In this document: piece after piece, positions 35,188-36,063 of the stretch
Numbering within the stretch: the stretch's first letter is position 1
Layout: the number at the start of each line of letters is the position of its first letter
DNA from: Hippea alviniae EP5-r
GTDB lineage: Bacteria > Campylobacterota_A > Desulfurellia > Desulfurellales > Hippeaceae
Length of the DNA stretch: 64,000 bases
Reading direction: 5' to 3'
Assembly (NCBI RefSeq): GCF_000420385.1
Contig: NZ_ATUV01000001.1
Span: forward strand, 1,178,001 to 1,242,000
Made by a program: the position numbers and the translations under genes
The notes under the pieces: model-generated
Seen by the model: only the letters and a program-made list of their open reading frames with translations
What the model was told of the DNA's origin: nothing
Database searches by the model: none

Positions 35188-35685
35188 TTAAGACTTTGTC
35201 TCGGTTTTAGAAAAAGCTGGCAGGAATTTATAAACAAACAACAAAAATATGCCAACTGTTATGAATGTATCGGCAAGATTGAAGGCGGGATAATGATAAT
35301 TACCGATGTGAAAATCCAAGAAATCAACAACATAACCTTTAAAAATTCTATCGTATAGATTACCCAAATCGCCGCCGCCTAAGAAGGCAAGAGATACGAT
35401 ATACAACCAATTTCTATCCTTCCCACGCAAAATAAGATATAAAACCACAACAAACACAACAATACTTATACCACCCAAAGCTATAAGCCTGATAGATGGT
35501 GGAAGATGAGCAAATACACCAAATGCTATACCCGCATTTCTTATGTGAACAATATTAAAAAAACCCTTTATAACTTCTATTGATGAGTTTAAAGGCAAGT
35601 TCGATGCTATATAGGACTTGGAAAAGTAATCTAAAATAAAAAAAAGGAGTATCAGAGATACTCCTTTTATGCCGTTTTTATCCAT
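35188..35685 (-). CDS. lspA: Lipoprotein signal peptidase (signal peptidase II)
   Basis: Membrane aspartyl protease that removes signal peptides from prolipoproteins. 165 residues with four hydrophobic helices. Conserved boxes: LDYFSKSYI, HIRNAGIAFGVF, GNLYDRIFKGYVVDFLDF with the first catalytic Asp, and YHYPAFNLADTFI with the second. Starts 6 bases after rplQ. Its codons 6-15 lie inside a terminator-like hairpin that probably limits transcription from the ribosomal operon. Confidence 0.93.
   Translation of the reverse strand: MDKNGIKGVSLILLFFILDYFSKSYIASNLPLNSSIEVIKGFFNIVHIRNAGIAFGVFAHLPPSIRLIALGGISIVVFVVVLYLILRGKDRNWLYIVSLAFLGGGDLGNLYDRIFKGYVVDFLDFHIGNYHYPAFNLADTFITVGIFLLFVYKFLPAFSKTETKS
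35638..35668 (-). terminator. Intrinsic terminator of the ribosomal operon, inside the lspA coding region
   Basis: Minus-strand stem AAAAGGAGTATC / GATACTCCTTTT (12 perfect pairs; arms at 35668-35657 and 35653-35642) with loop TCT, continuing into a run of eight T (35645-35638). This is a textbook rho-independent structure located 17-47 bases into lspA. Confidence 0.7.
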
Positions 35686-35691
35686 TAGAGA

Positions 35692-36063
35692 TTAGCTCTC
35701 TTCGGATTTCTCAACAAACTCCACAATAGAGATAGGAGCTGCATCGCCTTTTCTAAAGCCCAACTTTATTCTTCTTACATAACCACCGTTTCTTGATGCA
35801 AATCTTGGAGCTATCTCATCAAACAGCTTTCTAACAGCCTTCTTATTGTTGTTTAACCTTGAATAAACTATCCTTCTGTTAGCAAGAGTATCATTCTTAG
35901 CTTTCGTTATAAGCTTGCTTATAAACCTAACAAGCTCTTTAGCCTTTGCATCTGTGGTTGTAATCCTCTCGTGTTCTATCAACGATATGGCAAGGTTTCT
36001 CAAAAGATGCTTTCTTCTTTCACCGTCAATACTTAATGTTTTGTATCCCTTTCTATGCCTCAT
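35692..36063 (-). CDS. rplQ: 50S ribosomal protein L17
   Basis: Large-subunit protein of 123 residues. MRHRKGYKTLSIDGERRKHL is the standard N-terminus and fixes the start at ATG 36063; an upstream in-frame start lies inside rpoA. Overlaps the rpoA stop by 11 bases. Last gene of the ribosomal array before the embedded terminator. Confidence 0.95.
   Translation of the reverse strand: MRHRKGYKTLSIDGERRKHLLRNLAISLIEHERITTTDAKAKELVRFISKLITKAKNDTLANRRIVYSRLNNNKKAVRKLFDEIAPRFASRNGGYVRRIKLGFRKGDAAPISIVEFVEKSEES

Follow-up and report, generated by a model that had tools for sequence, protein, structure and literature searches.

The sequence analysed is a 64,000-nucleotide stretch of the genome of Hippea alviniae EP5-r, called the window in the following; the genome itself (G000) comprises 1.75 Mb in 4 contigs. 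On the minus strand of the window the ribosomal stretch rpsK-rpsD-rpoA-rplQ is followed by lspA (Table 1). Pfam domain assignment of the proteins encoded at the locus placed rpoA ahead of rplQ and identified the products of the last two genes as ribosomal protein L17 (PF01196) and signal peptidase II (PF01252), which agrees with the gene identities given in the original prediction, made from the sequence without database searches. The stop codon of rplQ (TAA, 35694-35692) and the start codon of lspA (ATG, 35685-35683) are close together, and the same holds for all 19 genomes of the order that we compared, in which lspA starts between -8 and +10 nt relative to the end of the rplQ stop codon. 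The Shine-Dalgarno pairing of lspA is weak (about +0.8 to -5.9 kcal/mol, vs -9.3 kcal/mol for rplQ), and together with the spacing of the junction this is consistent with translational coupling of the two genes.

Table 1: Features of the rplQ-lspA junction, with positions counted from the first base of the window.
Feature	Position	Strand	Remarks
lspA, lipoprotein signal peptidase (PF01252), single copy	35188..35685	minus	
rplQ, ribosomal protein L17 (PF01196), final gene of the rpsK-rpsD-rpoA-rplQ stretch	35692..36063	minus	
rplQ stop / lspA start junction	35683..35694	minus	six-base gap, weak Shine-Dalgarno
Predicted terminator hairpin	35642..35668	minus	12-bp stem AAAAGGAGTATC / GATACTCCTTTT, loop TCT; minus strand 35668-35642 reads AAAAGGAGTATC-TCT-GATACTCCTTTT, then TTTTATTTTA
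T8 (U) tract	35638..35645	minus	8 nt; covers end of Leu14, Phe15 and Phe16; unchanged across 19 genomes

Within the first codons of lspA we found a perfect hairpin of 12 pairs with a loop of three nucleotides, the first base of which is located 17 nt inside the gene, followed by a run of eight Ts. Both the form of this element on the minus strand and its placement, 17 bases inside lspA with rplQ six bases away, had been described in the original prediction and were confirmed by the coordinates that we read. The hairpin spans codons 6–16 of lspA, which encode the beginning of transmembrane helix 1. Of the eight Ts, four also take part in the 12-bp stem, where they form the outer A-U pairs. These outer pairs are kept in just a few congeners, and the conserved unit is the 9-bp core formed by the inner pairs (35645-35665), with the consensus (R)GGAGTRTY/GRYRCTCC(T), together with the T8 tract. 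With a calculated fold energy of -14.2 kcal/mol at 37 °C and -9.1 kcal/mol at 55 °C the element has the make-up of an intrinsic terminator, a stable hairpin directly 5' of a U-rich tract. The distance from the rplQ stop codon to the 12-bp stem is 23 nt, and other terminators of the window genome mostly show 14–28 nt. The 5' arm AAAAGGAG (window positions 35656-35668) also resembles a Shine-Dalgarno sequence and the CTCCTTT of the 3' arm resembles the anti-Shine-Dalgarno of 16S rRNA.

Elements of this kind appear to be rare at the beginning of genes. A generic terminator scan of the region gave 10 matches where 10.1 were expected, without an excess of weak hits, and the lspA site was the strongest of them. 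When 464 kb of the window genome were scanned more strictly, the lspA site was the sole perfect intragenic terminator, and no other convincing terminator in a gene start was found by strict scanning of about 1.66 Mb from three genomes, sampled as 20-kb stretches amounting to about 22–47% of each. Among 1,294 other ORF starts of these three genomes nothing comparable was detected except for the two lspA orthologues contained in the sample, and in each of the 19 lspA loci (about 2–3.5 kb each) the hairpin is the lone strong terminator on the sense strand. Some further candidates were rejected. One of them, a hairpin with T7 in the early codons of a chemoreceptor-like gene of the window genome (L073, 5340-5420, minus strand), which sits behind a fructose-bisphosphate-aldolase-like gene, has a stem that is not conserved in congeners, and three start-proximal matches in other genomes were dismissed as start-codon miscalls or as a weak site with a short T run. 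In the literature that we searched no description of a terminator at rplQ/lspA was found.

To take the comparison beyond the window genome, we read the same site throughout the phylum. The hairpin is present at the same lspA codons in all 19 genomes of the order, 16 from the family of the window genome and three from a sister family. The motif GGAGTRTCNYTGRYRCTCCTTTTTTTT occurs in all 16 members of the former and in two of the three members of the latter, and it is found once per genome, except that the fragmented assembly G015 has another copy on a small contig. The third genome of the sister family (G018) carries GGAGTGTT-GTT-GACACTCC-T8 at the equivalent site. The second copy in G015 (L060, contig 315) is a short repeat of the lspA start including the hairpin and is probably an assembly duplicate; likewise, one in-frame TGA in the lspA match of another fragmented assembly (L012, G006) is probably an assembly error. 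The gene lspA was found in 25 of 25 phylum genomes examined and lies 3' of rplQ wherever the junction was read. Six genomes belonging to two other families of the phylum lack the hairpin despite having the rplQ-lspA order, and a scan of fifteen distant lspA loci revealed no comparable element. The distribution thus suggests either a trait of one order that was added onto an older gene order or a loss in the two other families. Judged from the aligned sequences, the hairpin is maintained across the whole order, comprising Hippea, Desulfurella and their relatives, and is not a product of chance.

The way in which the element varies points to selection on RNA structure over coding sequence. According to the original prediction, one observation that would speak against it is a stem that no longer pairs in relatives sharing the gene order. 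We found the pairing intact throughout the order: all 171 pair cells of the 19 genomes are standard, with G-U steps at four of the stem pairs. As a control, shifting the partner by 1–3 columns left 37–68% of the cells paired; the shuffle control does not represent a probability. At columns 15/23 all three Desulfurella-type genomes of the sister family show a double change from A-U to G-C, which may be a single event inherited by the three; as it replaces Ile12 by Thr, the pairing has been kept and the residue has not. Furthermore, five codons of the hairpin, GGA8 (Gly), CTC13 (Leu), CTT14 (Leu), TTT15 (Phe) and TTT16 (Phe), are the sole codon used in all 19 genomes. Among the other degenerate lspA columns with a conserved residue none of 45 is codon-invariant (Fisher p = 2e-5 against the five hairpin columns); conserved Leu columns elsewhere in the gene use 3–6 codons and Gly columns 3–4, and the Leu codon CTC is little used in these genomes (2.8–7.8 per 1000). 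At codons 8–11 variation is almost solely found at synonymous sites, indicating that the stretch is translated. The main arguments for selection are the frozen codons and the pairing maintained over 19 species. The dual use proposed originally, in which the same bases form the hairpin and encode lspA, is supported.

Since lspA is present as a single copy in the complete genomes and the start codon of its open frame precedes the hairpin in each of the 19 genomes, every lspA transcript must read through the hairpin. Any lspA promoter is therefore also located upstream of the putative terminator, and lspA is a downstream gene without a promoter that avoids it, the arrangement looked for in a terminator that sets the stoichiometry of an operon. 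If the hairpin terminates, lspA depends on read-through, and by this logic of single copy and upstream start codon the originally proposed expression of lspA by read-through only is supported.

An alternative would be that lspA begins within the hairpin at the TTG/CTG codon 11, with AGGAG in the 5' arm serving as its Shine-Dalgarno sequence, which would make the hairpin a noncoding operon terminator that also hides the start codon. The AGGAG is indeed located 5 nt ahead of this codon, and the Pfam domain Peptidase_A8 opens at residue 11. The 3' arm and the T tract encode residues that align with the Peptidase_A8 start and the region of the first membrane helix in solved LspA structures, making a start after the hairpin very unlikely. 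The codon 5 nt past the GGAG is TTG in 15 of the 19 genomes and CTG, a poor start, in the remaining four including that of the window; this C/T change preserves Leu, and codons 8–10 also vary almost only synonymously. Moreover, an internal start would leave 8 residues to the conserved Asp, against 18 from the upstream start, a value also seen in the hairpin-free family f3, and the upstream start has an open frame in 19 of 19 genomes. We therefore judged codon 11 not to be the lspA start and consider such an internal initiation very improbable. Still more improbable is an explanation without any RNA function, in which the protein sequence GVSLxLLFF and codon bias fix the bases. The segment does encode part of transmembrane helix 1 and adjoins the conserved Asp, and the invariant LLFF codons of the membrane helix could carry some constraint at the protein level too. 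Against this stand the invariant GGA and the minor codon CTC, the families f3 and f4, which manage without the GVSLxLLFF peptide, the double change of the sister family (f2), which alters the residue and retains the pair, and the fact that recoding LspA residues 1–27 synonymously 200,000 times gave a comparable hairpin with T tract in just 87 cases; the codon data thus largely refute a reading based on protein alone. We also give next to no credence to the U8 behind the hairpin being a site of transcriptional slippage or frameshifting that lowers or diversifies LspA output: the U8 is strictly conserved, but no conserved alternative product was seen, the frame downstream is plain lspA, and the signals themselves are exactly those of a terminator.

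We favour, with a probability of about 0.72, the interpretation that hairpin and T8 tract are the intrinsic terminator of the rpsK-rpsD-rpoA-rplQ operon, stepping transcription down for lspA. Most RNA polymerases leaving rplQ would halt at the hairpin and T8 tract, and the minority passing it would produce the lspA message, giving a fixed, large step-down from a very abundant mRNA for ribosomal proteins to a membrane protease that is required at a low level. Ribosomes that have finished rplQ would re-initiate at the lspA start, which overlaps or adjoins rplQ, and a ribosome already on the first lspA codons is likely to boost read-through modestly, as a secondary effect. Termination in vivo, its efficiency, the re-initiation and the stoichiometric purpose are what we infer from the element. 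Terminators located in the first 100 bp of coding regions function efficiently in E. coli (PMC4824070). The proposed terminator would have a price, as termination at the T tract leaves a message that ends in lspA and lacks a stop codon; ribosomes would be trapped on it, and trans-translation would be required. A tmRNA gene is present, and the weak ribosome-binding site of lspA may limit this cost; nevertheless, the non-stop message would need an explanation and counts against an operon terminator at this place.

It is also possible, though unlikely, that the site works as a translation-controlled attenuator, as the original prediction envisaged, with read-through set mainly by a re-initiating ribosome that covers the 5' arm. 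This ribosome would have to arrive before RNA polymerase departs from the T tract, and lspA output would then report ribosome supply or growth rate. The close junction and the weak Shine-Dalgarno sequence would fit the re-initiation needed here, the core stem begins 21–33 nt past the lspA start codon in 19 of 19 genomes and so is reachable by a ribosome a few codons in, and precedents exist in pyrBI (PMC4824070) and ampC (PMC6045580). In the E. coli construct W48, however, the terminator lies 30 bp past the AUG of the second of three ORFs in an operon, and translation cost only about 10% of the termination efficiency (PMC4824070). The six relatives without the hairpin also have rplQ and lspA adjacent, so the adjacency did not evolve for attenuation. 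In addition, ordinary terminators of the congener G008 start less than 12 nt past the stop codon in 11 of 15 cases (only 2 of 16 in G000), a spacing that is taken as a sign of uncoupled transcription in the literature (PMC7858274) and that in G008 points to loose transcription-translation coupling. The corresponding count for G016 is 3 of 6, all three being small samples with crude gene calls (L081-L100 and L131-L150 for G008, L061-L080 and the window for G000, L101-L120 for G016), and such differences between congeners may bear on coupling in the lineage. Coding strands in L061-L080 and the window (G000), L081-L100 (G008) and L101-L120 (G016) are purine-rich, with means of 0.546–0.565, and purine-rich coding strands have been linked to runaway transcription (PMC13323073). 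In the E. coli system of construct W48, ribosomes strongly repress terminators that lie a few bases past a stop codon; the 23-nt gap at rplQ escapes most of the effect of a ribosome parked on the rplQ stop. A search covering strong terminator-type hairpins gave no second one in the locus that could compete as an antiterminator, and there is no room for a separate regulatory leader peptide as lspA starts within 10 nt of the rplQ stop. We regard as unlikely a growth-linked form of this control, a valve in which plentiful ribosomes trail the polymerase from rplQ, begin anew on lspA and thereby open the hairpin. If true, it would tie the capacity for lipoprotein processing to ribosome supply via the enzyme's own codons, and initiations on terminated messages would be removed by tmRNA.

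Parts of the leaky operon terminator that we prefer are known from E. coli. The ampC attenuator is located in the untranslated leader, whereas the putative attenuating site of lspA lies inside an open reading frame. As proposed for lspA, the terminator of the upstream operon, in this case frd, attenuates the next gene, and growth-rate-dependent anti-termination has been reported (PMC6045580). T1 between rpsU and dnaG in the macromolecular synthesis operon is likewise a conserved intrinsic terminator behind a ribosomal-protein gene and partly controls the level of the lower-abundance downstream genes (PMC7863352), but it is intergenic, in contrast to the lspA hairpin and T tract, which are wholly within the coding sequence of the downstream gene. 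In the pyrBI attenuator, as proposed for lspA, the terminator is placed within a translated frame; a ribosome close by suppresses the pyrBI terminator (PMC4824070). The pyrBI frame, however, is a short leader peptide with a pause site for RNA polymerase; at lspA the frame is a structural enzyme gene, and neither a leader peptide nor a pause element was found at this site. Premature 3' ends inside ORFs are widespread in E. coli, and of the listed 5'UTR/ORF ends about 20% have an intrinsic appearance (PMC7815308), but these are observations in a single species; at lspA, pairing and synonymous constraint keep the site in place throughout an order. In function T1 is the closest analogue, the closest case of dual use is frd/ampC and the closest terminator in a translated frame is pyrBI. 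To our knowledge, none of the three puts the whole terminator inside the structural gene that is limited by it.

In summary, the lspA site is well supported as an element, and the mechanism that we propose for it is drawn from sequence comparison. Intragenic terminators should not be discarded from annotations as false positives before relatives have been checked. The lspA site also offers a defined test of ribosome suppression of termination outside model species. With the same bases encoding a membrane helix and, as we propose, an operon terminator, it would be a clean natural case of dual use that is as deep as the order and has once cost a residue (Ile to Thr). Judging from this site, a single-copy housekeeping gene can apparently persist downstream of a strong terminator in its own frame.
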